Shown piece by piece: positions 4,085 through 31,394 of a DNA stretch of 34,900 bases. The position numbers and the translations under genes are program-made. Every line of letters begins with the position of its first letter. The stretch's first letter is position 1. The notes beneath the pieces are model-generated. The model was not told the DNA's origin. It saw nothing but the letters and a program-made list of their open reading frames with translations, and made no database searches. Origin of the DNA: an uncultured Saprospiraceae bacterium (GTDB lineage: Bacteria > Bacteroidota > Bacteroidia > Chitinophagales > Saprospiraceae); the NCBI GenBank assembly GCA_937961455.1, contig CALGNN010000120.1:1-34900 (forward strand), in the 5' to 3' direction.

Positions 4085-4142
4085 GACTTCTAAGAGTGTT
4101 GATTTACCTTTTTAACAAAACAGAATTTTAAGAATGCTCTTA

Positions 4143-4163: not shown

Positions 4164-4535
4164 CTTTTCTTGCCGTAAAATTTTTTCCATTTTACGACCT
4201 TTCGCCAATTCATCAATCAACTTTTCCATTTGTCTGCATTTCCTATACACTTCAAATTCATCTGCAATTTCTTCAATACGATACCCACAAACCACGCCTT
4301 TAATCATGTGCGCATTTGGGTGAATTTTAGCTTTTTGAAAAAGTGTTTTGTAAGTTGCTTTTTCATCTATTACAGCTTGTAATTCCTTCTGATCAAAACC
4401 TGTAAACCATCTAAGTACTTGGTCAAGTTCTTCTTTTGTTTTGCCTTTTTTCTCCAACTTGTTAATGTATAGTGGATAGATGCTAGCAAAAATCATATTG
4501 CCTAATTTTTCATTTTTTTCTGCTGTAACTTCCAT
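4158..4535 (-). CDS. DUF2200 family protein
   Basis: The 125-residue cytoplasmic protein matches the DUF2200 family along its length. It has the FASIYPLYINKLEKKGKTKEELDQVLRWFTGF opening, split here as FASIYPLYINKLEKKG and QVLRWFTGFD. A central IKGVVCGYRIEEI block follows, then the LIDELAKGRKMEKIL ending. The family has no established function. The gene lies 2 bases after the upstream TIM-barrel lipoprotein gene, so the two should be co-transcribed. Confidence 0.85.
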   Translation of the reverse strand: MEVTAEKNEKLGNMIFASIYPLYINKLEKKGKTKEELDQVLRWFTGFDQKELQAVIDEKATYKTLFQKAKIHPNAHMIKGVVCGYRIEEIADEFEVYRKCRQMEKLIDELAKGRKMEKILRQEKN

Positions 4536-4537
4536 TT

Positions 4538-5404
4538 TTATTGGTATTTAGAATTTAGTAATTCAATTCCTTTAATATTTCGATCAAGTACTTGCTTTAC
4601 ATCTTCATCTTTGATGTGCCCTAAAATTCCCCAAGGTCCATCGAATCCTTCTTCTTTTAATTTTAAAATCATTTCATATTCATGATCACCTTCACCTATG
4701 TCTAAGATTTGTGGACCATGCTTCTTTACCCCATTTAGATTTACGTAAGATAAATGTGGTGCAATCTTTTTTGCTATGTCGGGGAATTCATCTACATAGT
4801 CTTGGGCATGATGAAAATTATAAACCAGACTAATGGATGCATCATCTAATTGCTCCAAAATTTCAACTTGATGGTGAGGGTTTCCAAACCAGCCATGATG
4901 ATTGTACAGCGCTAACTCACAATCCAATTCATCTGCTTTCAATTTGATAAACTTAATCATTTCTACAGATAAATTCAATGATTCGTTTTGATCTATATTT
5001 TCAAAAAAGTTTTCGCTAAAACTCAACCATATAACTGGTTTTTGATCTACCTTTTTTAAATTATTAAGTAGTTCTTGATTTGCAGGACTCAATTTTCCAA
5101 TGCTATCTCTTTTGGCATTTAACCAAAGAAAAATGGAACTGATCTCTATTTCATTTTCACTTGCCAAATTGAATTCCTCAATCATGGTAGTCAGATCACC
5201 CTTCCCTTTATTAAAACCATACTTAGAAAGTCCCATTTCTTTGATCATGGATATTCTTTGTTCAGGAGTTCTTTCCATTGCATCAAACCCCAGAATGCAC
5301 CAGGGAGCTACCTCATCAATCTTGATTAATTCCTCAACTTTATTATTGCAAGCAACAAAAACAACAAGTAAAAGAAAAGTAGGTAAAAAGAAAGCGTTTT
5401 TCAT
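4538..5404 (-). CDS. Lipoprotein with sugar-phosphate isomerase/epimerase-like TIM barrel
   Basis: The 288-residue product starts with a lipoprotein signal (LLLVVFVACNN, lipid-bearing Cys at about residue 19). The mature part resembles xylose-isomerase-like TIM barrels (AP endonuclease 2 superfamily): ISMIKEMGLSKYGFN early, ELALYNHHGWFGNPHHQVEIL, SLVYNFHHAQDYVDEFPDI, LSYVNLNG and a GEGDHEYEMILKLKEEGFDG block. The His, Asp and Glu positions are typical metal ligands of the fold. Periplasmic lipoprotein members are common in Bacteroidota sugar loci, often without a known reaction. It is 2 bases upstream of the DUF2200 gene and close to the PL6 gene, which suggests carbohydrate metabolism, but no substrate can be named. 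Confidence 0.75.
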   Translation of the reverse strand: MKNAFFLPTFLLLVVFVACNNKVEELIKIDEVAPWCILGFDAMERTPEQRISMIKEMGLSKYGFNKGKGDLTTMIEEFNLASENEIEISSIFLWLNAKRDSIGKLSPANQELLNNLKKVDQKPVIWLSFSENFFENIDQNESLNLSVEMIKFIKLKADELDCELALYNHHGWFGNPHHQVEILEQLDDASISLVYNFHHAQDYVDEFPDIAKKIAPHLSYVNLNGVKKHGPQILDIGEGDHEYEMILKLKEEGFDGPWGILGHIKDEDVKQVLDRNIKGIELLNSKYQ

Positions 5405-5426
5405 TCGTGACTATTTTTAAAACTTA

Positions 5427-5882
5427 TTATCTAATATAAGTGCTTAAGAATATATAAATCCGTTCAAACCACAGTTGGATATGGTACATCAAAATAATGA
5501 ATAAAGCAAGATTGATATTTATTCGATTTTTTTTTCGCCACAATAGTTGCGTTAGCAGCAATGAAAGAATCATTACTGCGAAATATAGTTTCCAAATAGG
5601 ACCAATGGCCCGATCAAAAAATGCTAATTGTTCATAAAAATAACCAGCATACCAAGCCACTATTAGCTCTACAAAATATGCTAAGAGCAATGTAGTACTT
5701 AGTACGCAGAACATAAGATTGATGATATTTAATGGCCTTTGGTACTGTTCTTTTTTAATGGTAAATAATTTAATCCCAATCAGTGTGATTAGTATAAGGA
5801 GCGCTAGATAAGATAGCAATTGAGTTGCTATAACATAGAACGGATGAATGGTGGTATGCCAGCCTGGTGAAACATCAAACAT
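5427..5882 (-). CDS. Four-helix integral membrane protein, unknown function
   Basis: The 151-residue protein has four clear hydrophobic segments at about residues 17-42, 50-73, 88-112 and 122-147, joined by short charged loops (KKEQYQRP, WRKKNRI). There is no signal peptide or recognisable family motif. Aromatic residues near the helix ends (HPFYVI, WLAYF-like positions, FERIYIF) fit an inner-membrane protein. It lies 22 bases upstream of the TIM-barrel lipoprotein gene on the same strand and may start that transcription unit. Confidence 0.6.
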   Translation of the reverse strand: MFDVSPGWHTTIHPFYVIATQLLSYLALLILITLIGIKLFTIKKEQYQRPLNIINLMFCVLSTTLLLAYFVELIVAWYAGYFYEQLAFFDRAIGPIWKLYFAVMILSLLLTQLLWRKKNRININLALFIILMYHIQLWFERIYIFLSTYIR

Positions 5883-6045
5883 GTGTACATAAATTAATCA
5901 AAAAAAATGGATCGAGATAGGGGATAAGTTGTGTACGCAGCACAGCTAAATTGAAATTAGTTTTAGAAATTATCATCATGTATATTTAATTTCTGTTCTC
6001 TTGATTTTTCTTAATGGGCGGAATCTTCAACTGTATTCCATGAAG

Positions 6046-6882
6046 TTATTCTTGGTTATTATTTTGATTAAATATTTTTTCAAAAGCATAATAAACAGCA
6101 AAGTGTAGTGCATCTCCATGCGTTTTATCTTCCAAAAATTTATAAAATAAATCAGTATTCTTACTTTGACTCATTTTAAGTTTTTCATACAATTCTTTTG
6201 CAGTGCGCACCATTACTTCTCCTTCTTCTCCTCCTGCTATGAAGATGGATTTTTTCGATTCATAGTTTTTTACTTTTCTTTTTAATAGTTTTTCATCATC
6301 CCACCAAAGACTTGGGCTAACAATAATATAATTATCAAAGAGCTCTGGTTTTTCAAATAATATTTCAGTCGCTAAGAGACCGCCTAATGACTGCCCTATT
6401 AAAGTTTTATTTTTAGTTGTTCTAAAATTTGCATCAATAAATGTTTGTACTTCAGTTTCTAGAAACGTAATAAATTTTTCTGACCCTCCAGAACTAGGAA
6501 ATTCTTTTTGGTCAAGGACATTTTCAGAAGGGTAAGTGAAATCTCTTTTTCTATCAACATTTGAGATTCCAATTACTATGGATTCTGGAATCATATTAAT
6601 CCAAGAGAAAGATCCAAACTGAACAATTCCTGATACATGTATAAAGTCCTCATCTTTTGATCCATCTAATAGATAAATTACAGGATATGTTTTTATACTG
6701 TCCTTTGAGTAGCTTAATGGTAAATAAATATTTAAGTCTCTATTTTCATCTAATACAGATGATTTAAAAATGATGGTCTTACCAATTGTAAAATCAGTTT
6801 CACTAATTTGTTCCGGTGGTTTTTGTCCAAATAACAAATTACTTGTCATTAAAAGTATGAAACCTAAAGTCCTATAAATCAT
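6046..6882 (-). CDS. Secreted esterase of the Fes/esterase D-like family (PF00756)
   Basis: The 278-residue alpha/beta hydrolase has a signal peptide (about residues 1-19, ending LLFGQ). Family landmarks are YPVIYLLDGSKD (oxyanion-side strand), the nucleophile elbow LIGQSLGG with Ser165, and a late His in KTHGDALHF at about residue 254. The fold is that of bacterial enterochelin esterase-like and acyl esterase enzymes that hydrolyse ester bonds in the periplasm or outside the cell. The same family recurs at 24168-25349 with similar blocks (ESIVIGISNVDRKRDF against EMIVIGVLNVNRERDF), so they are paralogues. The substrate is unknown; this copy lacks the C-terminal TPR part. Confidence 0.85.
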   Translation of the reverse strand: MIYRTLGFILLMTSNLLFGQKPPEQISETDFTIGKTIIFKSSVLDENRDLNIYLPLSYSKDSIKTYPVIYLLDGSKDEDFIHVSGIVQFGSFSWINMIPESIVIGISNVDRKRDFTYPSENVLDQKEFPSSGGSEKFITFLETEVQTFIDANFRTTKNKTLIGQSLGGLLATEILFEKPELFDNYIIVSPSLWWDDEKLLKRKVKNYESKKSIFIAGGEEGEVMVRTAKELYEKLKMSQSKNTDLFYKFLEDKTHGDALHFAVYYAFEKIFNQNNNQE

Positions 6883-7239
6883 AATTATTGTTCTATCCGA
6901 TTAAATTGAAAATTGCATTACTCATTATAACGCTAGTGTAAAATAAGATATAAATAAGAGCTCCTAAATATTTTGACTACTGTATACTCGGGTAGTCCGT
7001 TTGCGCATCTGATATTTTGATTTCTTCGAGTCATAGCTATATGATATAGTTTACTCTTAATGGATCAAAGTTAGTGAATTGAAAAATTTAAAGAAATTGT
7101 ACAGAATAGAGAACATTAGCAGGGAACTCACGATTATATTGGAGTAAGTGAAGGTATGCTTTTCTTTTAGCTAGTAGATTGGTAAAGCCTTCAAGAGGGG
7201 ACTTGATGATTGATATTAAAACATTAAAGTATTTAAAAT
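6883..7239. other. Intergenic region without a recognised gene
   Basis: These 357 bases separate the divergent esterase gene and the decayed histidine kinase. I see no convincing coding frame. A 6-bp inverted repeat (GACTAC at 6975-6980, GTAGTC at 6992-6997) is the only visible structure. The region should hold the esterase promoter, but I could not pick out an exact Bacteroidota -33/-7 pair. Confidence 0.4.
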
Positions 7240-7883
7240 ATGCTCCAAAATTTAGTCTATTTATCAGACGAAGAGCTTGACAAAATAGTTGCAAGTTATG
7301 GGATAGTTGAAGAGCTAAATCAAAACAAAGAATACTTAGAGGAATATATTGATCTTGCAATGAAAGTTTCGGGATCACCAATATGTTATTTATCAAAACC
7401 GATGTCAGTCCATCGATAATCTCTGGGCTTCAATTGCTTGAAACTGTAGAATTATTACTCTTCCAAGAATTTAAGAATTATAAGGTTCACTTAATCAAGC
7501 CTCAAATTGATGTTCAAATGTTTGGTTATGAAAGTCTTTACAAACAGCTTTTCCAAAATATTATTTCTAATGCCATTAAGTATAGTGACCCCAACAAAGA
7601 TTCTTTCGTGAAAGTAGAATTTGAGTTGTCAGAAAATGCAATAAAATGTTCTATAAGTGATAATGGAATAGGTATATCCTCAGAAAAGCTGTCAACTATT
7701 TTTGATCCCTTTAAAAGAGTTTCAGATAAGGACGTAGAAGGTCTTGGAATTGGTTTGGATACATGTAAAATGATTGTCGAGGATATGGGTAAGATACTCA
7801 GTGTTCATTCTGAACTTGGAGTGGGCAGTACCTTTAGTTTCGAAATACCTACTCATGGGACACAGCAATTAAATATGTCTTAA
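7240..7883 (+). pseudogene. Histidine kinase remnant: GAF-like N-terminus and ATPase domain, middle lost
   Basis: A frame from the ATG at 7240 to a stop at 7417-7419 gives 59 residues (SDEELDKIVASYGIVEEL ... LAMKVSGSPICYLS) that look like the start of a GAF domain. In another frame, from about 7383 to 7883, lies a complete histidine-kinase ATPase domain: N-box LFQNIISNAIKYS, G1 ISDNGIGIS, F-box IFDPFKR, G2 EGLGIGLDTCKMIV and the closing GVGSTFSFEIP. The rest of the GAF domain and the whole DHp domain with its phospho-accepting His are missing between the halves. An internal deletion with a frame change near 7385-7400 explains this. The 166-residue ATPase fragment starting at ATG 7383 could still be translated but could not phosphorylate itself. 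Confidence 0.75.
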
Positions 7884-8410
7884 AGGATAGGTTCCTACAA
7901 AGCGTTTTTTGTAGCGTGTAAGTCTCTTAAAGAAACTGGGTAATCATATACTAGGTAGCAATTTTCTCCGAAATCCATTGATTCTTTTTAGTTGGTTTTG
8001 AAATATAGAATTCTTACTTTGTGCTTGTAACACTTATTCTACTCTTGAAATTATAAGTTTCTCATAAACCGATTTACTAAACACTTTCTATAGCTACACA
8101 GATTCTTTTTTCTTAGATCTACATTTTTACATTTTATTAATGACACGTTTGATGTGTGATTGATTTTTAAAAGAATGGATATTTGAAAAATAGAATAATC
8201 CTAGCAAGGACCTTAACCAGTTGGTTTAGATCCTTATTCGAATTTGAAATTTGATATTCTTTCTTGATGCTTAAGCTTGGTCAGTGAATTAGCAATAACT
8301 GATCATTGTATGAATCATCTTTACAAAGATGGTATAATTAGATTCAAGCTAATAGGTATCAGTATTCATTTATCAAAAAATTAGAAGACCTAAGTTAAAG
8401 CACTTTAATT
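7884..8410. other. Intergenic region between the kinase remnant and the intact kinase
   Basis: No coding frame of note lies in these 527 bases on either strand. Just after the remnant there is a 7-bp hairpin (CTACAAA 7895-7901, TTTGTAG 7908-7914, 6-base loop) without a following T run. The 3' end holds a short palindrome and a TATAAT, listed separately. The region may contain further decayed sequence, but I cannot recognise any. Confidence 0.4.
8316..8338 (+). promoter_or_regulatory. Candidate operator/promoter upstream of the histidine kinase
   Basis: A 16-base palindrome (CATCTTT, two bases, AAAGATG at 8316-8331) is followed directly by TATAAT at 8333-8338, about 75 bases before the kinase ATG. 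It could be a regulator site next to a promoter, but it is a single occurrence without experimental support, and Bacteroidota promoters often use a different -7 element. Confidence 0.3.
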
Positions 8411-9844
8411 ATGGCATCGACAACAAATCAAAAGCACAATAGAATCCATTTTCTTAAGAATATTCACACTTATATAAGTTATTTATTCCCTACTGAGTCT
8501 AAAGAGACTAAGGAAGAGACCTATAAAACTTATGTACTCATTTATTCTGTTTTATTTGGAATAGGCTTGCTTTTAATTATGATGCTTCTGAATCATTTTC
8601 TACATTTTAATAGTTCAGGTGTTTACTGGCCTGCTTTGCTATTTGGAGGTATTTATCTTTTGTGTTTAAAGTTGAATATTAAACTTGCATACATAGGGAA
8701 TATAATTGCTCTTGGATTTTTTATCATAGCTGTAATTGATGCACTCAGCTCAGGAAAGATTTATTACTTAGGAATATTTTGGACCTTACTTGTTCCAATG
8801 TTTGCATTTTGTTTTGCAAATCTAAAGTCAGGTATTTTTTGGACTGGAATTGTAACGCTATATGTTTTTTTATTGTACTACTTAGAAATTAAAGCTGAGC
8901 AAAGTTCAATGGAAATGGTTTTGCAGACTCCTGAAGTCTACCTTATCGCTATTTTAGGATTGCTCTTTTATGTTGCAATGATTTTATACTTTTTTAGAAA
9001 GGGTAATAATTTGATTATTGAAGAATTGAAAGAACAAAAAGAGCTTGTCAAACAAGAACAACAGAAAACGCTTGAAAAGGCTGAAATGTTGGAAAAGCTG
9101 CAGCAGTCTCTTGTTGAGAAAAATAATGGATTGGAAGAGGCAAAACTTCTTTTGTCTAAAAAAAATCTAGAATTAGAACAATTCGCATATGCAACATCTC
9201 ATGATCTAAAGAGCCCATTGCGTACCATTATAAGTTTTTCTCAACTACTAAACAGACACCTAGATCAAAATTCTTGGAAAGATGAAAAAACAGATAAGTA
9301 TATGGATCTTATAATGACGGGATCCAATAACATGAATTCTTTTATTACAGATTTATTGGATTACGCAAGTATTGGAGTAGGTGCAAACGCTCTTGTTGAA
9401 ACAGATTTGAATGAAGTAATAGCACTAGCAAAAGAAAGTTTGCTTGAGCCAATTCAATCAACAAAGACGACGATCATTTGTGATGATCTGCCAAGGCTAA
9501 AAGTTGTTCCAATAAAGATTAATCAACTCTTTCAAAATTTGATTTCAAACGCGATCAAGTTTCGAAAAGAGGATGAGTTATTAATCCTAAAAATTTCTGC
9601 TAAGAAAAAACCTTTGAAATGGGAGTTTAGGATTGAAGATAATGGTATCGGCATCAAAGAAGATCACCTAAATAGTATATTTGAACCCTTTAAAAAACTG
9701 CACAGTCAAGATAAATATAGTGGATCTGGTATTGGTCTTTCTACCTGTCTCAAAATTGTAGATATGCATGGTGGTGAGATTTGGGCTGAGTCCGCATTTG
9801 GAGAAGGCACTTCTTTTTATTTTACAATTTCGGCTAGCTGCTAA
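8411..9844 (+). CDS. Membrane-bound sensor histidine kinase
   Basis: The 477-residue protein has about six transmembrane helices between residues 41 and 196, a charged coiled-coil linker (about 200-258) and a full kinase core. The H-box is FAYATSHDLKSPLRTI with phospho-acceptor His264. The N-box is NLISNAIKF (about 376-384), G1 is EDNGIGI (409-415), the F-box is IFEPFKKL and G2 is SGSGIGLSTCLKIV. The membrane part has no large periplasmic loop, so it may sense a membrane or intramembrane signal. The SHDLKSPL type of H-box is common in orphan Bacteroidota kinases. No response regulator is encoded in the window. The decayed kinase just upstream suggests this was once a two-kinase locus. Confidence 0.9.
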   Translation: MASTTNQKHNRIHFLKNIHTYISYLFPTESKETKEETYKTYVLIYSVLFGIGLLLIMMLLNHFLHFNSSGVYWPALLFGGIYLLCLKLNIKLAYIGNIIALGFFIIAVIDALSSGKIYYLGIFWTLLVPMFAFCFANLKSGIFWTGIVTLYVFLLYYLEIKAEQSSMEMVLQTPEVYLIAILGLLFYVAMILYFFRKGNNLIIEELKEQKELVKQEQQKTLEKAEMLEKLQQSLVEKNNGLEEAKLLLSKKNLELEQFAYATSHDLKSPLRTIISFSQLLNRHLDQNSWKDEKTDKYMDLIMTGSNNMNSFITDLLDYASIGVGANALVETDLNEVIALAKESLLEPIQSTKTTIICDDLPRLKVVPIKINQLFQNLISNAIKFRKEDELLILKISAKKKPLKWEFRIEDNGIGIKEDHLNSIFEPFKKLHSQDKYSGSGIGLSTCLKIVDMHGGEIWAESAFGEGTSFYFTISASC

Positions 9845-9879
9845 AAGTATTTAGTTAACTCGCAGATTTTTGAAAGAAC

Positions 9880-9915
9880 AAACGCCGTTCGCCTACAAAG
9901 AGCGAACCAACGTTT
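9880..9915. terminator. Hairpin between convergent genes
   Basis: A GTTCGC/GCGAAC stem (9887-9892 and 9902-9907, 9-base loop) is nested in an outer AAACG/CGTTT pair (9880-9884 and 9911-9915), with a T-rich flank on the plus side. It sits between the plus-strand kinase and the minus-strand barrel gene, so it is a plausible shared bidirectional terminator. Confidence 0.5.
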
Positions 9916-10031
9916 TACACTTTATACTAATTATTTCCTTTTTAGAATACTGACATTCTTATTCCATCTTTGCAATCTTAAGTTTGTTGAAAGAATAAGT
10001 AATTATGAAGAAGGTATTTGCTACTTATGTT

Positions 10032-10745
10032 CTAGAATCTAAACAAATTGTAAGTAAAATTAAAATGAAGGCCTCTTGATGTAATGGATCCAGGAGAAGT
10101 AAATCCATCTACAGTCTCTCCCGTGAGTTCCTTTAAAGAAGCATTATAGGCAACAGATAAGAACATATTTTTATAAGCGATGCCTAACTCAGGAATGAGC
10201 CCAATTCCACTACTTTTATAATCGGTAAAAATTTCTGTTTCTATATTGTTTGTTATGGCTAAGGGCACATCGCCTAATTCAACCTCTTGCGTTAAATAGG
10301 CTATGCCCAACTTTGCATAGGGTTTTATACCTTCACCTTTTGGTGCATATGTAAAGTTTAAAAGCATGTGCATATTTGCTAAAGCCCCATTTTGTAAATA
10401 ACCATCAATGGTTTGATTATTAACCCTAGCATCTCTAATAAAGTTGGCTTTCGCAAATGCACTATTAAATCCTAAGCCCACATAAAATTTATCAGAAAGA
10501 GCATAGTCTAATGAAGTTAAAAGATTTATTCCTTGTTTAATTTCAGGACTGTAGGTAGCTCCAGAAAAAGAAACACCATCACTATTGCTACCATTCGTAA
10601 AGACGACTCCATTTTCATTTATATTTGGTTGATACAATCCAGCACCAATTTTTAAACTAAATTTTTTTTGGCTATTTCCTTGAGCGAAAATACTTGTACA
10701 TGTGAAATAAAATGAACAAGCAATTAATAAATAGATTTTTTTCAT
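10032..10745 (-). CDS. Outer-membrane beta-barrel protein (PorT/OmpW-like fold)
   Basis: The 237-residue product has a signal peptide (about residues 1-21, ending IFAQ). The mature part is a series of amphipathic strands: FSLKIGAGLYQPNI, YVGLGFNSAFAKANF, KPYAKLGIAYLTQEVEL, GLIPELGIAYKNMFLSVAYN. It ends in an aromatic strand, LHFNFTYNLFRF, as expected for barrels folded by the BAM complex. It stands alone between the plus-strand kinase and the uronan operon. No ligand or transport role can be read from the sequence. It is of the same general type as the barrel at 269-802, without obvious close similarity. Confidence 0.7.
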   Translation of the reverse strand: MKKIYLLIACSFYFTCTSIFAQGNSQKKFSLKIGAGLYQPNINENGVVFTNGSNSDGVSFSGATYSPEIKQGINLLTSLDYALSDKFYVGLGFNSAFAKANFIRDARVNNQTIDGYLQNGALANMHMLLNFTYAPKGEGIKPYAKLGIAYLTQEVELGDVPLAITNNIETEIFTDYKSSGIGLIPELGIAYKNMFLSVAYNASLKELTGETVDGFTSPGSITSRGLHFNFTYNLFRF

Positions 10746-10974
10746 TTCGAATTGATTTTGTTATTGAAGTAATATTTTCAAAACCATATATCGAAACCGT
10801 GGAAGAGGTTACCCTTTGTTCATATTTTTTTATAGATCTATGACAATGACAAAGCCCTAACTGCTACTTTTTAAATATTTTACCCTTTTATTTTGCAAGT
10901 ATTAATGCTTCATGCAATAGAACTACATTTTGAGTAATGATAAAAATGAAGTATGGAAATACAAGGCCTTACTT

Positions 10975-13056
10975 TTAGTATTTGGGTTTATAGCAGATTG
11001 ATTTTATTACATGACCTCGCTTATTACTAATCTTTGAAATCCACTTGCCTTGCGTATTAATATCTTTATAATGAATGTCATGTTTATCCGAGAATAAAAA
11101 TATTTCAGTATGTGTCCCTGACTTGATTTTCACTCCACTGCATCCGTCTCCAAAAATCCTATGTATGTTAAGAGGTTCAGTGGCTTCGTCTTCTATCGTA
11201 CCTTTGGGTTGAAGGACATGAAGAAAGTGCAAGTTTTTGGACTGATTGGAGTTTTCGATTTTAAGCGTCTGGAGACTGATGCGTCGTATATCATTTGGCC
11301 GCTGAGGTGTCATAATCTCTTCTATCAAAGTCTCGGTGACCTCGTCCACTGTGTCCACAGGAAACATAGCAAATACATTTAATGCTCCTCTTCCATCTTG
11401 AATTTCAAAATGATTCTCGGATAACTTTTTGGCTTGTTTTTCAGAGTGCATGCGCCAAGTGTAGGTATGCTCCAGATCACTCTTTAGTTCGTCGAGTATA
11501 ATAAAATAACCCAACTGACTATTAATGATGTGACGTGCAATACGTTTTAATTGCAGCTTTGGATCATACATTTTACTTGCTTCTCCAACTGCATAAATAT
11601 ATTCATCCTTAGCGGTGAATGCTTCGATACATGCACTAGCTGTTTCAGGCACATCTCGCCAAACATTGTGAATGCCTTTACAATTAAGATCGAATCTTTC
11701 TGGATCGCTAAGATCTCCTTCCTCCCAAATTTTTTCACCTATACAGCCCTTGCCATCCACTGTAATCAAATTATGTATCTCTGCTCTCGAAGTTCGATTG
11801 TAGCCTTCGTCCATTGCTAGTAAGGCGCCACGGTGTATAAGTGTGAAGTGATTGAAGTCAACATGATAATGAGTTAAGCTCCGTGTACGCCAATTATTCT
11901 TTTTGTTGATCTCCCAGCTAATTTTCCATTGTTTGTGGCCTCCAGGTGGGCTGGTCTTAAAAGAAAGATGCGTCGCATCTTTATCCCAGCCAGAGCGCAT
12001 TACTACCAATCCTAAATCTGGAAAATATTTATGCAAGGGAAGCTCATTGGGCGATAGTGGTTTGATGGATGGATTATACCACAATAACTCTAAAAAGGCT
12101 TCTGGAAGAATGCCTGGAAATATTTTACTTTGAGAAGCTTCCCTAAACAAAAATTTGGTGCGCACCAATTCTGCTAGCCATTGGGCATATCGATTTTGAC
12201 ACTCTGCAGCCAATTTGTAATAAGCGCATATGGAGTGAGAACTCCTTCTATCATGCACATCACCGAAAGGAATGTTCTCTTCCCAATTAGGGGCTGATTG
12301 ATAAAGCCGAAAGTAAAAAGTATTTTTAAGAAAGTCGGATTCGAAATAATTGGGCCCACCATCTTTACGGATGAGGTGGGCAGTCGTTAAGAAAAATTTC
12401 ATTGCATATCTCCAATAGCCTGTTCCTTCATAGTTGGAACCATCCTCGGGCAAGTATTGGAATACAGTTTTAAAATTTTCTTTTATTGTGTTAATCCATT
12501 GTTCTGCACCTTTATATTCCTTTCTAATGGCGTAAGCAGTGGTCAATAATCCTGTATAGTTGATCCAATTATGATTTTGCCAATAATCTGTTGACCAACA
12601 ATTGCCTTTATTATCTTCACCGTAGTTAAAAATTTTGTTTCCTTGAAGGATGAGTTTAGTAAGGAAGGTTTTGCGTTCTTCGTTTGTCAAATCTTCTTTG
12701 ATCCAATCGTAAGACAAACCTAAGCCATAAAGCAACCAGGATGCACTCAAATCCACATCCACCAAAAATCCATATCCCCAAACTTCATAGCCAGTTGCTG
12801 TAAAGATCCACCGCTTCGCTTCTTGTAAATAATGCTCTTGTCCTGTTAGACGATAAGCCAGGCTTAGATTGGCAGCTGCCATTCCCATATATGTAATGCT
12901 AGTAGGAGGGGGATCGCTTGAAAGAACTTCATTGTAATAAGGTCGACACTGTTCAATAAGCCTATTGAAGTGTTCATGGTGTGTGGTATGGAGTTGTGAC
13001 TTGAGCTGTTCTAAGCGATCATCAATGAGTAGGTAATCCATGTACTTATTTTGCAT
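10975..13056 (-). CDS. Heparinase II/III-fold polysaccharide lyase, probable cytoplasmic oligo-alginate (exo)lyase
   Basis: From the ATG at 13054-13056 the protein has 693 residues; the frame stays open upstream only to non-ATG codons inside the symporter gene. A second ATG at 13039-13041 would avoid the 11-base overlap with that gene. There is no signal peptide. An alpha-toroid occupies the first half, with WQNHNWINYTG (Asn/His pair near residues 161-162) and EGTGYWRYAM (Tyr near 214). The C-terminal half is the heparinase II/III beta-domain, with HYHVDFNHFTLIHRGALLAMD and HNLITVDG. Asn, His and Tyr at these places are the catalytic residues of PL15/PL17/PL21-type lyases. A cytoplasmic location resembles PL15 oligo-alginate lyases that release unsaturated monomers. 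The symporter and reductase genes support alginate; heparin- or other uronan-derived oligomers remain possible. Confidence 0.85.
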   Translation of the reverse strand: MQNKYMDYLLIDDRLEQLKSQLHTTHHEHFNRLIEQCRPYYNEVLSSDPPPTSITYMGMAAANLSLAYRLTGQEHYLQEAKRWIFTATGYEVWGYGFLVDVDLSASWLLYGLGLSYDWIKEDLTNEERKTFLTKLILQGNKIFNYGEDNKGNCWSTDYWQNHNWINYTGLLTTAYAIRKEYKGAEQWINTIKENFKTVFQYLPEDGSNYEGTGYWRYAMKFFLTTAHLIRKDGGPNYFESDFLKNTFYFRLYQSAPNWEENIPFGDVHDRRSSHSICAYYKLAAECQNRYAQWLAELVRTKFLFREASQSKIFPGILPEAFLELLWYNPSIKPLSPNELPLHKYFPDLGLVVMRSGWDKDATHLSFKTSPPGGHKQWKISWEINKKNNWRTRSLTHYHVDFNHFTLIHRGALLAMDEGYNRTSRAEIHNLITVDGKGCIGEKIWEEGDLSDPERFDLNCKGIHNVWRDVPETASACIEAFTAKDEYIYAVGEASKMYDPKLQLKRIARHIINSQLGYFIILDELKSDLEHTYTWRMHSEKQAKKLSENHFEIQDGRGALNVFAMFPVDTVDEVTETLIEEIMTPQRPNDIRRISLQTLKIENSNQSKNLHFLHVLQPKGTIEDEATEPLNIHRIFGDGCSGVKIKSGTHTEIFLFSDKHDIHYKDINTQGKWISKISNKRGHVIKSICYKPKY

Positions 13057-14818
13057 TTTTTTGTTTTCCCAATCTGAGCATCCAGAAGCTGATTCCACCA
13101 ATAACGACCACCAAGCTCAAGATAGCCAAGCGTCCTTCAATTGGATTGGGGATGAATAAGAGTAAAGCAATAAAGCAAGTGATGGCTACACCAAACCCAC
13201 CTATAGCAGTTAATTGTCGTAGGTCATTACCTTGACCAATTTCTTTTTCGAAATCAATCGGAGTTTTCATCAAAGTAAAAAATTGATCGACTTTTTTTCT
13301 GTGAACAGATTCCTTTGTAGGAGCAAATAACATTGACACAAAAAAACCTAGTGTACCTGCTCCAAATACACCGAATAATTTTTGTTGGTAATTCCAGTGA
13401 AAGTCTTTACTAATGGTCTCTGTAAATCCTAAACTACTTATTGGTACTTCGAAGAATGCAAGACAAGAAACAATAAAAGCAAAACCTATTGATAATAAGC
13501 CTGCCCAAGAGGGTGTGTGCCTGAAAAACAAGCCCCACAGAAGTGGCACTGCTATGGGTACCGCTAAAAGTGCTCCTACATCTAACATTATTTCAAAGAT
13601 GCCTTTCCCTTCTTGTTGGGCAAAATATAAAGCCAATATAATAATCAAGGCACCCAAAAACCAAGTATATAGCCTTCCTATTCGCAACAGTTGTGTTTCA
13701 TCTTTTGGTTGCCAACGAAGCTTTTTGGATAACTTTGGGTAAATATCTTTTATTAGAATCGCGACATTGGTATTCAGTCCGGTATCCATTGAACTCATTG
13801 TCGCTGTTAAAATTGCCACCACGATCATGCCTACCAATCCGACAGGAAGTAAACTGATACTGGCTATGGCATAACTCGCTTCGCTTGGTTTACTAATGTC
13901 GATGGCCATAACGGTGTCGTGAAAGAGTAGACGAGCGGTAATCGGAGGAAGGAACCAAATAAAACTTCCTGCAAGCAATAATACGGATGCCAATAGTGCT
14001 GCTTTTTTTGCCTCACGTCCGTCTTTAACGGAAAAATAACGAGGAGCAGCATTAAGAGAATTGTAAACTAGAAATTGTTTAACCATGATTGCACTAATCC
14101 ATCCCCATGTATAAGCGCCTGCAAATAATTCAACAGAATTGACCATTTTATATGCTTCGCTAAGTCCTGCCGCTTTTACTGACTCAAATAAATTTTTGAT
14201 GCCTCCCAATTTGTCTAAGCAGATCCAAGCAATGACTATAGTTAATGGTACCAATATCAACCCTTGTAAAAAGTCAGTTGCCATTACAGCCCAACGACCT
14301 CCTGTTGCAGAATAAATTAAGACTACTACTCCACAAAGAATAATTACATAATTAATATTATAACCGAATACGGCGGAGCAAAAAATACCCAAGCTATAAA
14401 GCGCCATTGAGGAATAAAGAATTCGAACAGGCACTTCATACAAGGCGTAAAAATTACGGGTGGTTTCTCCGAAACGTAAAGAAATAGCTTCAGGAAGTGT
14501 AGTAACTCGTAATTGCCTCAGCCAAGGAGCGAGGAACAGAAAATTCATAAAGTAACCTAAAGAACTTCCTAAGAAGAGAAACATGACCGAGTAACCTGCT
14601 TCATAAGCCATTCCAGCTGCTCCTGTAAATGTCCAAGCAGTAAAACTTCCCATAAATGCACTGGTGCCCACCAACCACCAAGTTCCTTTTGATCCTCCTT
14701 TAAAATAGTCGGCGGTATTGGCGGAGAAGTTTTTAAACACCAGACCCACTACTACCGTCAAAACCAAATAACAGGCTATTACAAAATACTCTATTCCTGA
14801 AATTTCTATTCCTGACAT
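13046..14818 (-). CDS. Sodium/solute symporter (SSS family), probable uronate oligosaccharide importer
   Basis: The 590-residue protein has about 13-14 transmembrane helices and typical SSS sequence: ADYFKGGSKGTWWLVGTSAFM near residues 36-56, the GAAGMAYEAG turn, LPEAISLRFG, YSATGGRWAVMATDFLQG near 170, and ATMSSMDTGLNTN near 340, which corresponds to the sodium-site helix. SSS proteins couple inward sodium flow to sugar, amino acid or organic acid uptake. Here the gene lies 27 bases after the reductase gene and overlaps or abuts the lyase gene. SSS-type transporters are known to carry oligo-alginate and its monomer in marine Vibrio, which fits this neighbourhood. The exact substrate is inferred from the operon only. 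Confidence 0.88.
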   Translation of the reverse strand: MSGIEISGIEYFVIACYLVLTVVVGLVFKNFSANTADYFKGGSKGTWWLVGTSAFMGSFTAWTFTGAAGMAYEAGYSVMFLFLGSSLGYFMNFLFLAPWLRQLRVTTLPEAISLRFGETTRNFYALYEVPVRILYSSMALYSLGIFCSAVFGYNINYVIILCGVVVLIYSATGGRWAVMATDFLQGLILVPLTIVIAWICLDKLGGIKNLFESVKAAGLSEAYKMVNSVELFAGAYTWGWISAIMVKQFLVYNSLNAAPRYFSVKDGREAKKAALLASVLLLAGSFIWFLPPITARLLFHDTVMAIDISKPSEASYAIASISLLPVGLVGMIVVAILTATMSSMDTGLNTNVAILIKDIYPKLSKKLRWQPKDETQLLRIGRLYTWFLGALIIILALYFAQQEGKGIFEIMLDVGALLAVPIAVPLLWGLFFRHTPSWAGLLSIGFAFIVSCLAFFEVPISSLGFTETISKDFHWNYQQKLFGVFGAGTLGFFVSMLFAPTKESVHRKKVDQFFTLMKTPIDFEKEIGQGNDLRQLTAIGGFGVAITCFIALLLFIPNPIEGRLAILSLVVVIGGISFWMLRLGKQKNAK

Positions 14819-14845
14819 TGATTGTTTTGAATTTTCATTCTGGAT

Positions 14846-15616
14846 TTACCTACCCATCCAGCCTCCGTCTACCGTCATGATACTTCCGTTCATATAATCT
14901 GATGCAGCAGAGCTAAGGTACACAATAGGACCTTTAAAGTCTTCCGGTTTCCCCCATCTTCCAGCAGGAATTCTTGCAAGTATGGCTTTTGCTCGTTCGG
15001 GATTGCTTCTTAAGTTTTTGGTGTTGTCAGTTGCAATATACCCAGGTGCAATGGCATTTACCTGCACACCTTTACCAGCCCACTCATTGGCGAAAGCCAT
15101 TGTCAATTGCCCTATGGCTCCTTTACTGGCTGCATATCCGGGGACCGTTATTCCACCTTGATAAGTCAGTAAAGAGGCAGTAAATATGATCTTCCCATTT
15201 CCTCTCAATACCATTTCTTTTCCTATTTCTCGTGTCAGTATAAATTGCGCAGATTGGTTGACAGCAATGACATGATCCCAAAGTTCGTCACCATGTTCTA
15301 TTGCTGGTGCGCGTTTGATAGTTCCAGCATTATTAACCAAAATATCAATTGACTTATTTTCTAATTTTACTTTTTGGATAAATGCATAGAGTGCATCTCG
15401 ATCTCCAAAATCACAAGCATAACTCTTGAATGATTTACCCAATGCAGTAATGGCTTGTTCAACCTCGCTACCTGTTTTTTCAAGGCTGGCACTCACACCA
15501 ATAATATCTGCTCCTGCCTCGGCAAGTGCAATGGCCATAGCCTTCCCTATACCTCTTTTACAACCAGTAACCAAAGCTGTTTTGCCTTCAATACGAAATT
15601 TATCTATGATATTCAT
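14846..15616 (-). CDS. kduD: KduD-like SDR oxidoreductase, probable uronate reductase (DEH reductase)
   Basis: The 256-residue cytoplasmic short-chain dehydrogenase has the cofactor motif TGCKRGIG (residues 17-24), NNAG (95-98) and catalytic Ser148, Tyr161 and Lys165 (TVPGYAASKG). The C-terminal part, NAIAPGYIATDNT followed by RIPAGRWGKPEDF and VDGGW, is characteristic of the 2-deoxy-D-gluconate 3-dehydrogenase (KduD) group. In pectin pathways KduD acts on 2,5-diketo-3-deoxygluconate. In alginate loci close relatives reduce 4-deoxy-L-erythro-5-hexoseulose uronate to 2-keto-3-deoxygluconate. The neighbouring symporter and lyase favour the alginate reaction. It is the first gene of the three-gene operon. 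The kinase and aldolase needed to finish the pathway (KdgK, KdgA) are not in the window. Confidence 0.88.
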   Translation of the reverse strand: MNIIDKFRIEGKTALVTGCKRGIGKAMAIALAEAGADIIGVSASLEKTGSEVEQAITALGKSFKSYACDFGDRDALYAFIQKVKLENKSIDILVNNAGTIKRAPAIEHGDELWDHVIAVNQSAQFILTREIGKEMVLRGNGKIIFTASLLTYQGGITVPGYAASKGAIGQLTMAFANEWAGKGVQVNAIAPGYIATDNTKNLRSNPERAKAILARIPAGRWGKPEDFKGPIVYLSSAASDYMNGSIMTVDGGWMGR

Positions 15617-27720: not shown

Positions 27721-29388
27721 TTAAATTGTAGAATTTGGATTCTGGCAGCCAATATACACTTCATTTATTTTTTTTAATCCAAATTCGGATAAGACTAAAT
27801 CAGTAGATCGTAAGGAACCATTTACCCAACCTTGCATATCTGACCAAGACTCATTACAGCTATAAATTTCTTCATCAACAATTAGCTTTGTCATGCGTTT
27901 GATAACTTTTTTGTCATCCGAATTTAAAGCCCATTGGTGATAAGCATAACCAAAATTATCTTTACCATCCCAATTACGGTAACTAGTCATTACTGGATTT
28001 GGAACATAGTGGGTTTTAAAGAGTTGCTTAAATTGTTTTAAGGCTTCGTCTACTACTGCTTGTGAAGCTGCAAATAAAGTTTGCGGAGGTTTGCTATGTT
28101 CTCTTTGAAGTTCAGAATCGAATAGGGGTCCAACATTCTGTAATCCTTGCCAATAATTTGTATTGTTATAATCACAATAAATCGTAAGGGCAGCAGCTTG
28201 AGTATCAGATGGACCATTTACAGGGTAAAATGGGTATACTGCATTTACAGGAAGATCTGTAAAAGATGGTCCGAAAATAATTTCTGCTTGGCCAGTTTCT
28301 CCATTTTTCCACCAAGGTTTATCGAAATATAAGTTGATTTTTAACAAGCGCATATTGACAATAGAATGGATGTCCTGCCATATTTGCGAAGCATTTTCAG
28401 CATCATTTAATACAGGAGAATTAATGAAAACCTGTTGCATGGCATTACTAGCTATGGCTAAAATAATCTTTGACGCATTGATTTTTGTTTTCTCCTTGCT
28501 AGATGTATTTAGAATAATTTTTTTGTTAGAAGCTACTTTACAAAGTTCTATTGCGTATCCGCCCTCCAAAGATTTTGAGATACTATCAAGGTTTGTACTT
28601 AAGAAAATTTCACCACCTAAATCTTCAACTTCCTTTTGCAAAGCTTTAATCAATGTGCTAAATCCGTATTTGAAAGTGTGATAATGTGGATTTTTAGGGA
28701 AATCTTCTAGGATTTGCCAAGCTTCACCTGCACTAACTGTAGATAAAAACGGCGCTTGAAAACCAACTGTATCAACCATCATGTTAATACATTCTTTGGT
28801 ATAGCCCATATCACTGAACAAACCACCCATTTGCCATTTGTTCAAAGTAATTCCTTTCCATTTAAATTCTAATCGGAATTTTTGCCAAAACTCAGGCGTT
28901 GGATTCGCAGGAGCTACATCAACTCCATTAGCCTTTAGAATTCGATTATAGATTGTGTTTAATATCGTGCCCGGACTTTGATTTTGCTCAGCAGGAGCAA
29001 GCTTGTACAATTTGCTCCAAATGGCATTGTTATTAGCTGATGCCTCGTCTGCCGTGAAACTACATCCACGGACAAAAAAACGATTTGTAGTCATTGGGAA
29101 ATCCACAATTTGTTCGCATAGTTTCAGACCGTAAAAAAGAGACATCAATTCTTCCATTTGATAATTGAAACGCATGCCACCTTCTTCATCTCTAACAACT
29201 ACAGCTTCGTTAGTTTCATCATTAATTTTAATTAAATCTGTATCCAAACGACCACCTGTTCTGTTCAATCTTTCTACGATAGTCACTTTTCTATTAGGAT
29301 CCTGTTTTAAAAGTCGCCAAGCAGCGTAGAGTCCTGAAACTCCAGCACCAACAATAAGTATATCTGTTTTATTTGGTAATGATTTCAT
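27721..29388 (-). CDS. FAD-dependent amine oxidase (L-amino acid oxidase/monoamine oxidase-like)
   Basis: I place the start at the ATG 29386-29388 (MKSLPNKTDILIVGAG, 555 residues); the frame extends 13 codons to a TTG that lies inside a terminator stem. The Rossmann FAD motif DILIVGAGVSGLYAAWRLL is at about residues 9-27, with VTIVERLNRTGGRLDT following. The C-terminal flavin amine oxidase region has SWSDMQGWVNGSLRSTDLVL. No signal peptide is present. Flavin amine oxidases convert amines or amino acids to imines and release hydrogen peroxide. The gene follows the haem-barrel gene, separated from it by an intrinsic terminator. The closest functional analogues would be L-amino acid oxidases, some of which are antibacterial through peroxide, but the substrate cannot be read from the sequence. 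Confidence 0.85.
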   Translation of the reverse strand: MKSLPNKTDILIVGAGVSGLYAAWRLLKQDPNRKVTIVERLNRTGGRLDTDLIKINDETNEAVVVRDEEGGMRFNYQMEELMSLFYGLKLCEQIVDFPMTTNRFFVRGCSFTADEASANNNAIWSKLYKLAPAEQNQSPGTILNTIYNRILKANGVDVAPANPTPEFWQKFRLEFKWKGITLNKWQMGGLFSDMGYTKECINMMVDTVGFQAPFLSTVSAGEAWQILEDFPKNPHYHTFKYGFSTLIKALQKEVEDLGGEIFLSTNLDSISKSLEGGYAIELCKVASNKKIILNTSSKEKTKINASKIILAIASNAMQQVFINSPVLNDAENASQIWQDIHSIVNMRLLKINLYFDKPWWKNGETGQAEIIFGPSFTDLPVNAVYPFYPVNGPSDTQAAALTIYCDYNNTNYWQGLQNVGPLFDSELQREHSKPPQTLFAASQAVVDEALKQFKQLFKTHYVPNPVMTSYRNWDGKDNFGYAYHQWALNSDDKKVIKRMTKLIVDEEIYSCNESWSDMQGWVNGSLRSTDLVLSEFGLKKINEVYIGCQNPNSTI

Positions 29389-29422
29389 GTTTAATGTTTT
29401 TTGAGATAGGTTCAGAAAAAAA

Positions 29423-29452
29423 CTCAACTGAAGTTAATTTACCTCAGTTGAG
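29423..29452 (-). terminator. Intrinsic terminator between the haem-barrel and amine oxidase genes
   Basis: CTCAACTGA (29423-29431) and TCAGTTGAG (29444-29452) form a perfect 9-bp stem with a 12-base loop. On the minus strand a run of seven T follows at once. It begins 10 bases after the stop of the haem-barrel gene and ends 35 bases before the amine oxidase ATG. This is a textbook rho-independent terminator, placed so that it would limit read-through into the oxidase gene. Confidence 0.8.
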
Positions 29453-29461
29453 CTGTGTTAA

Positions 29462-30769
29462 TTAATATTTTGAATGTCCCATTGGACAAACGATAGGTGC
29501 TGGGCTACCTGGAACTTTTTCATCAGATTCCGAAGGGATAAGGATTCCTGCTAATCTTTTATTATCTGGAATGTCTTTTAATCGTCTTAAAGTATTTACT
29601 TGAATATGAGGCCATTGGGTAGTTCCACCATTTGAACCAAACATGAATTCAAAATCTACGATTTGCTCATATTGTAATTGTTCTATAAGTCCTCCAAAAT
29701 CATCGTCGTAAACTTCCTCTAACCACATACGAAAACGTACCCTTGTAACTTTGCAGTAACGATCAATCATCACGTTATTAATCATTCCACCTTGAACACC
29801 TGTTTCATGGAAAGAATCCAATGAAATCAATTGATACTTTTTAAACTTAAGATCTTTGTTAGCGTCAATCAACTTTAAGTTTGGCTGAACTGTATATGGA
29901 AATTTTGCACCAAATTTATCGTAGTTGAAAACTTTTAAGAAATACGCACGCGCACTGTTTAAACCACTTTCTCTGGGTCCACCTTCAGGATTTTGATCTT
30001 CCCTTGGCAGTTTAGTCCAAGCTGGTTTATCACGACAATCTTTAATAAGGTCCTTCTCTGGTTTTATTCCCATAGTTTTAGATACTGCTAAATATTGTGG
30101 GTCCCATAGTTCTGCTATAGGCGGGGCTTGCCCTTCGACAGGTTCAGAAGCATTCCCAGTAATGTGTATGGTTGTGCCGTGAGGAATCACTCCCGAACGA
30201 GAAATTGTATAGGGAGGAATGAACTGAGGTCCTAGTTCACCTGGTCCAATAACGGGTTCTCCACCATCTTCTTTTACAGATTCTTCATCGGATGAGTGCT
30301 TGAATAAGTTTGGAGGATTTTGGGTCGGACTGTCTGCACTCCAAGGCATAATATTGTCACCTAACCAAAGGTACATTCCATCTTCAAAATGTTGCAATAA
30401 GTTATCATTGTCAATAATAGCAGTTTCGTATTTAACGGCTGCGTTAAACTGTTCGTTTGATCCTCCACGGTTTCGCACAGGAGCATTTACTTGAGTAAAC
30501 TTTAGTTGCTCTCTATATTCTTGAGATTTAAAATGGAATACACCAAATACGGTTTCCGAAGATGTCCCAGGAGAAGGCATTGGAGTGGTGTGTAATCCTT
30601 TAGGTCCATCCTTCCAGTTTACCCAAGTACCATGAAGTTTGGATAAAATTCCAAATTGGGCTCCATTATAATCACCGCCTTCTGGAAGTCTTGGTTTCCA
30701 TTTTGTGTATGGTTTTACCGAAGACTTTTGGGTTTTTTTAGCATTAGGATTTTTGTTTTCTTTTTTCAT
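29462..30769 (-). CDS. Nitrobindin-like haem-binding beta-barrel protein
   Basis: I use the ATG at 30767-30769 (MKKENKNPNAKK, 435 residues); a TTG two codons earlier is less likely. The N-terminal 50 residues are basic and low in complexity. The core, about residues 45-215, resembles haem-binding barrels of the nitrobindin type: GILSKLHGTWVNWKDG, a YREQLKFTQVNAPVRNRGG strand with the NRG element, LLQHFEDGMYLWLGD and VIPHGTTIHITGN. The C-terminal 200 residues (FRMWLEEVYDDDFGG, FEFMFGSNGGTTQWPHIQV) are not assigned. It is cytoplasmic by prediction. The amine oxidase gene follows directly, so the product may handle peroxide, or bind haem or a ligand, next to a peroxide-producing flavoenzyme. That link is inference. 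Confidence 0.65.
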   Translation of the reverse strand: MKKENKNPNAKKTQKSSVKPYTKWKPRLPEGGDYNGAQFGILSKLHGTWVNWKDGPKGLHTTPMPSPGTSSETVFGVFHFKSQEYREQLKFTQVNAPVRNRGGSNEQFNAAVKYETAIIDNDNLLQHFEDGMYLWLGDNIMPWSADSPTQNPPNLFKHSSDEESVKEDGGEPVIGPGELGPQFIPPYTISRSGVIPHGTTIHITGNASEPVEGQAPPIAELWDPQYLAVSKTMGIKPEKDLIKDCRDKPAWTKLPREDQNPEGGPRESGLNSARAYFLKVFNYDKFGAKFPYTVQPNLKLIDANKDLKFKKYQLISLDSFHETGVQGGMINNVMIDRYCKVTRVRFRMWLEEVYDDDFGGLIEQLQYEQIVDFEFMFGSNGGTTQWPHIQVNTLRRLKDIPDNKRLAGILIPSESDEKVPGSPAPIVCPMGHSKY

Positions 30770-30832
30770 GATCAATTTTTTTTTGAATTAATAAGCTTTT
30801 TTTGAAGGTTCGTAGGCATAATCAAGACTTCT

Positions 30833-30991
30833 CTAGCAATGTAATGTTGAGCTGTAAATTTGGGAATTTGAATACTGAAGTAATTGTTTAAAATACCTTA
30901 CGTGTGCTTTGTCGTTGTTGTAAATTGCGGGACTCATCAGCTGATCTAAATATTCAACGGGAAGAGAATGTACGCCTTTAACAACGGACAT
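30833..30991 (-). CDS. Possible small protein of 52 residues, unknown function
   Basis: An ATG at 30989-30991 opens a frame of 52 codons ending in TAG at 30833-30835. The product begins MSVVKGVHSLPVEYLDQLM and continues with AIYNNDKAHVRYFKQLLQYS. The amino-acid mix is that of a soluble helical protein, not of random AT-rich sequence. An in-frame stop lies two codons before the ATG, so it is not an obvious 3' fragment of a longer upstream frame. It ends 63 bases before the haem-barrel ATG on the same strand and could be the first gene of that transcription unit, a leader, or a remnant. I do not recognise it. Confidence 0.4.
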   Translation of the reverse strand: MSVVKGVHSLPVEYLDQLMSPAIYNNDKAHVRYFKQLLQYSNSQIYSSTLHC

Positions 30992-31394
30992 GAATTTCTA
31001 TAAGTCCATAAGAATAGCGTTTGTTTTTAAAAAATAATTATGTGAGTTTGAGTTAGAACATTTTTATCCTTAATTAGATATTAAATGAGCATAACAAACT
31101 TGTTAAATAGCTGAAAAGCCTATTGGCTAGATTCAGCAATCCTAAGTCTAGATGTTGAAATTGATAAAAGATGAAAATTGCAGCACTGAAAAAAATGTTT
31201 TCATATTTATTATTTCTTTGATTCCATATGCATTTTGAAATCAAAAAACTATCTAAAAACTTGATTTGAAGTTAAAGGGAAGAGGGCAACATATCAATCA
31301 CATGAAAATGTGTCCTTAATAAATTCCTGTATATTACTGATTGTAGTTTTGCTAAACTTTGTATGGGCGTTCTAGCATTTGTTGTCGATATTAT
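30992..31394. other. Intergenic region without a recognised gene
   Basis: These 403 bases lie between the lamin-tail-domain gene and the small frame at 30833-30991. They are AT-rich, with frequent stops in all frames and no convincing repeat or RNA. The region probably carries the promoter of the haem-barrel/amine oxidase genes, but no exact TAnnTTTG element was found on the minus strand. Confidence 0.4.

Follow-up and report, generated by a model that had tools for sequence, protein, structure and literature searches.

An FMP-type haem protein with a nitrobindin-like predicted fold is repeatedly linked to L-amino acid oxidase-family genes: a gene pair from an uncultured Saprospiraceae bacterium

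Two genes, one for a flavin-dependent oxidase and one for a haem-barrel protein, stand next to each other in the DNA of an uncultured Saprospiraceae bacterium (assembly GCA_937961455.1, contig CALGNN010000120.1; the analysed stretch of 34,900 nucleotides is called the window). The question raised by this locus is whether the two proteins work together and, if so, what they do. Both minus-strand open reading frames (ORFs) were found where an earlier note on this DNA had placed them, the haem gene with the same ATG (Table 1). In our study, the haem gene was found to belong to a named family, and its partnership with oxidases was met again in numerous unrelated bacteria, in some cases with redox enzymes of quite another kind. 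The proposal of the earlier note that the pair is a functional unit is well supported, because the adjacency is repeated, the two families co-occur when unlinked and the haem gene switches partners. That the haem protein consumes hydrogen peroxide (H2O2) made by the neighbouring oxidase, as an oxidase-peroxidase couple, is a reading which we hold to be evenly balanced between right and wrong.

The flavoprotein matched the Pfam family Amino_oxidase (PF01593) with 66.9 bits against a cut-off of 19.8. Its closest solved structures were 7og2 (E-value 1e-138), with similarity over oxidase residues 10-560 in two stretches, and the ancestral L-amino acid oxidase (LAAO) 7c4k (2e-137), which confirms the flavin amine oxidase named earlier. 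We take 7og2 to be Pl-LAAO of Pseudoalteromonas luteoviolacea or a near relative; the identification is our own, and the length of 653 agrees with that in PMC6316408. From these alignments the window protein is an LAAO of the Pl-LAAO/AncLAAO type over nearly its whole length, about 100 residues shorter. Eight residues (G27, G29, G32, R60, G83, G84, R86, and K363) were common to at least 95% of 39 rows of the LAAO cluster described below and presumably serve in FAD and substrate binding. According to PMC6316408, Pl-LAAO is found in the culture supernatant without a predicted signal peptide, accepts a wide range of L-amino acids and kills bacteria via H2O2. The window copy may by analogy share this activity and substrate range. 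No signal peptide was evident by eye in the window proteins. Unlike the window, the published P. luteoviolacea gene region has no haem-barrel gene listed in the Figure 8 legend of that paper.

The haem-barrel protein was found to match the NCBIfam family NF040571 ('peroxidase, FMP-type') with 488.8 bits (cut-off 300; E 9e-147), over model positions 15-359 of 360 and protein residues 36-399, and NF040572 (heme_bind_FMP) with 196.6 bits (cut-off 150). It is a member over both cut-offs, and since the family already has a name the haem protein is not undescribed. The family name is silent on any oxidase partner, and no paper describing the oxidase/haem-barrel pairing, or the NF040571 name or accession, was found in a search mostly outside the subscription literature. 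By sequence, the protein matched no Pfam family at E<=1, the nitrobindin family PF08768 included, and no solved structure was retrieved with the single sequence or with a profile of 67 proteins. PF08768 was found in none of 40 genomes (the window genome and 39 relatives) and gave 5 weak matches (E<=0.01), none reaching the cut-off, in 23 genomes of the loci described below; the relative at locus L040 had 18.9 bits where 25 is the cut-off.

The fold was recovered by structure prediction. An AlphaFold2 model built with 67 relatives had a predicted local distance difference test score (pLDDT) of 86.4 and a predicted template modelling score of 0.85. In VIA-align its top match was 2fr2 (Rv2717c; Z 15.3, root-mean-square deviation 2.0, 160 aligned of 161), followed by THAP4 (14.3), Arabidopsis (12.9-13.6) and the related Rv0813 (12.2); every row from Z 12.2 up was a nitrobindin or Rv0813, and the next row was at 9.4. 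A shorter relative (312 aa; 7 sequences, pLDDT 72.0) gave Z 17.2, 16.0, 14.7-15.3, and 13.8, with the next unrelated row at 11.0. The modelled haem-barrel protein is thus of nitrobindin fold, in agreement with the nitrobindin-like barrel proposed before, and shares its barrel with the nitrobindins (THAP4 C-terminal domain, At1g79260, Rv2717c; Z 12.9-15.3 for the window protein and 14.7-17.2 for the short relative). It differs from them in lacking a PF08768 match, in extra invariant His and Arg residues and in its gene partners, and it is more than 2.5 times longer than the Arabidopsis nitrobindin (At-Nb), through insertions in the barrel and at the ends. The arrangement of a barrel followed by an unassigned C-terminal part of 200 residues, as given in the earlier note, had to be abandoned: by the structural match the barrel spans residues 36-400, broken up by insertions between its strands (in the model's secondary structure at about 138-190 and 210-300), and the C-terminal strands 310-398 are part of it. 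A separate C-terminal domain was ruled out by the model and the structural alignment.

The linkage of the two genes was examined in other bacteria. A named-genome scan seeded on WPH[IV]x[VI]NTL found 266 relatives of the haem gene, of which the best 80 were used; 77 of these loci had a readable haem gene, and L070, L082, and L098, without a haem ORF in the clustering, were left out. ORFs of at least 100 aa from the window and L031-L122 (L031-L042 lie outside the 77) were clustered with no families preselected. After the haem family, the largest clusters were the flavin amino-acid oxidases (33 loci, the window and L042 included) and the ferritin-like PF12902 proteins (24), followed by one of 15. 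A LAAO-family gene adjoined the haem gene on the same strand within 400 bp in 24 of the 77 loci, so that the co-occurrence in other genomes on which the earlier note made its idea depend was found; within 6 kb on the same strand the count was 26. The LAAO gene was present anywhere in 27 loci and adjacent in 24, where 7.25 were expected and the maximum in 100,000 draws was 17. The other partners were PF12902 (19 of 77), FAD-SLDH-like (13), GMC (12, all Chryseobacterium), thiamine pyrophosphate (TPP) decarboxylase (11), SoxA-like (10), LodB-like (5), and LodA-like genes (4: L056, L077, L081, and L096, with PF17990 over its cut-off; the L077 protein was below the NCBIfam LodA equivalog cut-off). 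One or more of LAAO, LodA, GMC or SoxA stood within 6 kb in 42 loci, or 30 when GMC was excluded. After the haem proteins were thinned to below 80% identity, 18 of 33 rows had a partner enzyme (14 without GMC; L115 counted twice).

The order of the genes was also found to vary. The haem gene preceded the LAAO gene in the window, L044, L053, and L058 and followed it in L062; it stood last in TPP-LAAO-haem (L048-L050), in the middle of LAAO-haem-LAAO (L047, L057, L064), and first in haem-TPP-LAAO-ferritin (L040, L041) and haem-ferritin-LodA-LodB (L077). The partner state changed at least 17 times on a quick tree of 67 rows below 90% identity (the truncated ORF of L062 left out), in which long branches meet and the deep part is unsure. 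The LAAO cluster covers a wide range. Of the 26 loci with LAAO within 6 kb, 10 (L044, L047, L051, L053, L057, L058, L062, L071, L088, and L091) had a member of Pl-LAAO type, with 45-78% identity to the window oxidase; the members in the remaining 16 had 21-26%. When one of each main divergent kind was compared with solved structures, the haem-linked LAAO L050:7856-9955 was found to be a clear relative of 7x7i, and L105:7961-9718 matched 7eih/7eii ('FAD dependent L-Lys oxidase') very closely.

A few single loci were also recorded. An ORF of 1028 aa beside the haem gene in L064 (11949-15035) is an apparent fusion of a SoxA-like oxidase with a LAAO-family protein. In L042 (G270 contig 15, about 7893-8114) a short, stop-containing haem-family remnant follows directly after the LAAO gene; the close relatives of this LAAO (L104-L106, L119) have an intact haem gene at that place, and another haem copy lies on contig 24 of the same genome. 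A multicopper-oxidase-family gene was found two ORFs upstream of the haem gene in Chromobacterium subtsugae (L073:6739-8847).

The two families were further found together when unlinked. Among 100 related genomes, the window genome included, a strong LAAO match (E <1e-90, a limit set after the results were seen) was present only in G000, G016, and G022, which are exactly the genomes with the haem family (p 6e-6, or 2e-4 without the window genome; all p-values of this paragraph are without correction for phylogeny), and in G016 the two genes lie on different contigs. At E<=1e-20 LAAO was found in 5 of the 100, including all three haem genomes (p 6e-5). In a sample of 395 genomes of the phylum, where at most 3 LAAO candidates per genome were scored and the counts are lower bounds, 4 of the 6 LAAO-positive genomes (E<=1e-20) were among the 11 haem-positive ones (p 5e-6; 1e-4 without the window genome). 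LodA overlapped less: it was present in 9 of 395 genomes, and two of the nine were haem-positive (p 0.02). The 27 closest relatives had a linked oxidase-family gene in 17 loci, and eight of the other ten had a strong Pl-LAAO match elsewhere in the genome, 43-47% identical over the best stretch; these were seven of eight Pseudoalteromonas genomes and a Cytophagales metagenome-assembled genome (MAG; L045). PMC6316408 gives the rate of Pl-laao among Pseudoalteromonas genomes as 20.4%; compared with this, seven of eight has a binomial p of 1e-4. Of the remaining two, L059 had LodA only and L043 only a 32% LAAO relative. Unlinked oxidases were also sought in 32 genomes (31 of the 32 loci without a partner, and L082), where LAAO (E<=1e-20) was present in 13 and LodA in 15. 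L079 was left out of this count; it carries LAAO and TPP genes on the opposite strand, at a distance of 1.8-3.6 kb. In Pseudoalteromonas rubra (G505 contig 45, about 10863-12440), a LodA-like protein in one open frame was found to match the catalase fold at its N-terminus; the haem gene of this genome is without a linked partner.

The residues that may hold the haem were then sought in the 67-row alignment, with numbers counted from the TTG start. H129, H199, and H390 were present in 67 of 67 rows, and E131 and R103 were likewise invariant. The conservation of W388, H390, and N394 is partly by construction, because the scan was seeded on that motif; H390 was also present in all 12 rows recovered independently of the seed. 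An hhalign comparison of 7 short FMP proteins with 6 nitrobindins (E 1.5e-5, probability 79%; hhalign E-values are for one single comparison) placed H129-x-E131-x-G133 on H76-x-E78-x-G80 of At-Nb, an alignable H-x-E-x-G motif common to the two groups in which E78 and G80 were invariant among the nitrobindin rows, and set H199, the His of IPHG, opposite T98. With the full 67-row profile the match covered the N-terminal part only (E 4e-4, probability 34%). The iron of At-Nb is bound by His158, and His76, across the haem from it, is too distant to be a ligand (PMC10135655). By eye W-P-H390 resembles Q-P-H158, but the hhalign match stops short of H390, and by the ends of the structural match (399 to 166) H390 falls one residue off H158, so that a one-residue gap is required; H390 is for this reason graded as only the likely axial (proximal) ligand. 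The check for an axial His set by the earlier note did not refute its idea: the three His residues are conserved throughout, H390 in part by the seed, and the assignment of H390 as the ligand is only likely.

Cys-Pro/His C-terminal tails (CPMGHSKY in the window protein, CPVMRHTR, GCPYHKG) were found to recur in many haem proteins of L044-L069 and L094-L122. The pattern CP..?H was present within the last 20 residues in 30 of 90 haem ORFs, with longer variants besides; the haem proteins of Pseudoalteromonas retained MxH but not CP. We take the tail to resemble the N-terminal KCPFH of KatG.

In the oxidase-peroxidase couple, the flavoenzyme would convert L-amino acids into 2-oxo acids, ammonia, and H2O2, and a His-ligated ferric haem protein, whose nitrobindin fold is extended by insertions and whose distal side bears His/Glu, would consume that H2O2. 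The peroxide might be used to oxidise a second substrate, as in a true peroxidase, or the protein might simply protect the producing cell. We infer the binding of haem by the barrel, the turnover of peroxide and the meeting of the two proteins in the cell; a haem partner that handles peroxide would fit the family name and most of the partner kinds. A wider proposal, which we put forward tentatively and consider somewhat doubtful, is that bacterial amino-acid oxidases which form peroxide have a general haem partner in the nitrobindin-fold FMP proteins. The module would have joined at least two unrelated oxidase classes, the flavin LAAOs of several subtypes and LodA-like enzymes of the cysteine tryptophylquinone type, and perhaps a GMC enzyme; the fresh H2O2 would not just be removed but would serve a dedicated reaction of peroxidase or peroxygenase kind. 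Should the couple prove real, a hardly studied haem family would gain a physiological source of peroxide and the antibacterial LAAO clusters a missing partner, and nitrobindin-type barrels would be added to the folds found in bacteria as partners of peroxide-forming oxidases. A self-feeding oxidase-peroxidase pair, made of single proteins of moderate size, would also be of practical use in biocatalysis. In the window genome no PF00199 catalase was matched (KatG was not searched). PF00199 was over its cut-off in 10 of 30 genomes examined, some of these being catalase-fold parts of LodA proteins, and the haem protein is therefore not simply a stand-in for a missing catalase.

Several observations weigh against the couple. 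None of the partner families was found within 6 kb on the same strand in 32 of the 77 loci (short contigs can hide partners), and 11 of the 32 partnerless genomes searched, including 5 of 5 Undibacterium and 4 of 6 Flavobacterium, had neither LAAO nor LodA. A terminator-like hairpin lies between the window genes, which makes a single transcript of the pair uncertain, and no fusion of haem protein and oxidase was found among the clustered ORFs. The GMC partner of Chryseobacterium, which is accompanied by a FAD-SLDH-like small subunit, had glucose and fructose dehydrogenases as its nearest relatives of solved structure (E about 1e-53 to 1e-46; best pyranose oxidase 3e-14). Judged by these matches it need not make H2O2, and because it looks dehydrogenase-like, peroxide cannot be claimed as the product common to all partners. 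An experimental origin for the name 'FMP-type peroxidase' was not found in the literature searched, mostly without subscription papers. For the haem site itself, the AlphaFold2 model is of the protein without haem, and the His corresponding to H76 was present in only 1 of the 6 nitrobindin rows. For the fold, Foldseek by itself had nothing at E<=1e-3; its top rows (thioesterases, porins, and pore complexes) were set aside as noise because VIA-align put nitrobindins first among the same candidates.

The main rival is that the two proteins form a biosynthetic pair. VioA/VioB and RebO/RebD each join a FAD amino-acid oxidase with a haem protein, and in the same manner the haem protein, with the co-produced H2O2, could couple, oxygenate or in another way alter the reactive imine or 2-oxo acid made by the oxidase, to give a small molecule. 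We regard this as unlikely for the window, though it deserves serious attention. VioA was the best NCBIfam match of the oxidase (61.7 bits, E 7.6e-17), far short of the cut-off of 600, and the relatives' clusters contained a TPP 2-oxo-acid decarboxylase in 11 and a PF12902 ferritin-like gene in 19 of the 77 loci, the PF12902 protein of L077 matching VioB at E 1.2e-4; the Pl-laao cluster of P. luteoviolacea also holds an indolepyruvate decarboxylase gene (PMC6316408). Where such genes join the pair this explanation is favoured, but among the ORFs scanned neither was found near the window pair, nor were violacein or rebeccamycin pathway genes recognised in the window. The haem protein had no VioB (TIGR04492) match at E<=1, which rules out its identity as VioB, and the likely substrates of the partners differ (amino acids, and sugars or alcohols for GMC), suggesting no single shared intermediate. 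The LodA/GoxA quinoproteins are another known case in which a peroxide-making amino-acid oxidase is tied to an iron or haem protein: some members are fused to catalase-fold domains, and in fungi PF12902 genes lie nearby (PMC4417212; the word 'peroxidase' is absent from its main text). The window oxidase is instead a flavoprotein and its haem partner has a nitrobindin fold, not a catalase fold; LodA_N had no match in the window genome.

It is improbable, in our view, that the haem protein handles nitric oxide or peroxynitrite and adjoins the oxidase within a general unit for oxidative and nitrosative stress. Nitrobindins bind nitric oxide and isomerise peroxynitrite (PMC10094804; PMC10135655), and the fold and the H-x-E distal motif would suit this role, but none of the recurrent neighbour families identified concerns nitrogen oxides, and the invariant H199 at the position of Thr98 in At-Nb and the large barrel insertions set the protein apart. 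A role as electron acceptor or maturation partner of the redox enzyme, as LodB for LodA, also appears to be a poor prospect. It would account for the partnership with dehydrogenase-like GMC enzymes, whose relatives pass electrons to haem subunits, and the LodA clusters already hold a maturation gene, LodB. No electron-transfer role of nitrobindins is known to us. When cloned by itself and produced in E. coli, Pl-LAAO was active (PMC6316408), so that a maturation partner is not needed there. The two genes could finally be chance neighbours with separate roles, in line with the hairpin that splits them and with the haem gene lacking such neighbours in Marinigracilibium, Pseudoalteromonas, Undibacterium, and others; this is very improbable, as adjacency far exceeds the within-locus expectation, gene order and partner state vary repeatedly and the families co-occur when unlinked.

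Table 1. Features of the gene pair in the window; residue numbers are counted from the TTG starts
Feature	Position	Strand	Details
Haem-barrel gene, FMP-type peroxidase family	29462..30769	minus	435 aa from ATG 30769
Haem-barrel ORF, longer start	29462-30775	minus	TTG 30775, 437 aa
FAD L-amino acid oxidase gene, Pl-LAAO/AncLAAO type (from sequence)	27721..29388	minus	ATG 29388, 555 aa
Flavoprotein ORF, longest form	27721-29427	minus	open up to TTG 29427
Terminator-like hairpin	29421..29454	minus	14 pairs, loop 6, then T run
Region upstream of haem gene	30776..31394	not assigned	about 620 bp without listed ORF of >=80 aa; presumed promoter region
C-terminal tail CPMGHSKY	29462-29490	minus	haem-barrel protein
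Candidate haem-site residues			haem-barrel protein; proximal H390; distal-side H129, E131, H199
Conserved oxidase residues			dinucleotide-binding glycines, E81-x-G83-G84-M85-R86, K363; kept across the wider LAAO cluster

The intergenic gap of the window pair is 73 bp, with both genes on one strand, and its hairpin had a dG of -19.5 kcal/mol (z -5.3; 0 of 200 shuffles equally stable). The ATG of the oxidase was preferred because the upstream TTG falls within this hairpin. Between the T run and that ATG lie fewer than 30 bp, and transcription of the oxidase thus probably depends on partial read-through or on a start within the haem gene. The gaps of ten relatives were folded, and six (L044, L047, L050, L053, L057, and L088) were without a comparable structure; in L034 a long perfect inverted repeat separated the oxidase gene from the haem gene, L062 had a short stem, rich in G+C, with T's after it, and L058 and L071 had longer, structured gaps. 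Promoter-like sites across the wider region around the presumed promoter were no more frequent than expected by chance.

NF040571 was over its cut-off in 1 of the 100 relatives (the window genome itself) and in 3 of the 395 genomes of the phylum; at E<=1e-3, and with the window genome counted, the haem family was present in 3 and 11, respectively. A scan of viral contigs with the same WPH seed gave 3 stretches and no relative, a plasmid search gave no match, and a viral fold search gave nothing at E<=1e-3. A defence system was rejected: PADLOC gave the haem protein no match and the oxidase one, to a 'C-3?,4? desaturase' model (E 2.5e-5). The 27 closest haem proteins (L043-L069), 63-82% identical, were found in Bacteroidota, Gammaproteobacteria, and one Verrucomicrobiaceae MAG, and such high identity across phyla suggests that the family was spread by horizontal transfer. 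Elsewhere in the window, the minus strand from 2261 to 15616 contained a chondroitinase-B-type lyase with a type IX secretion system tail, a heparinase II/III + DUF4962 protein, a sodium:solute symporter and a short-chain dehydrogenase/reductase, and resembles part of a locus for the utilisation of alginate or uronate.

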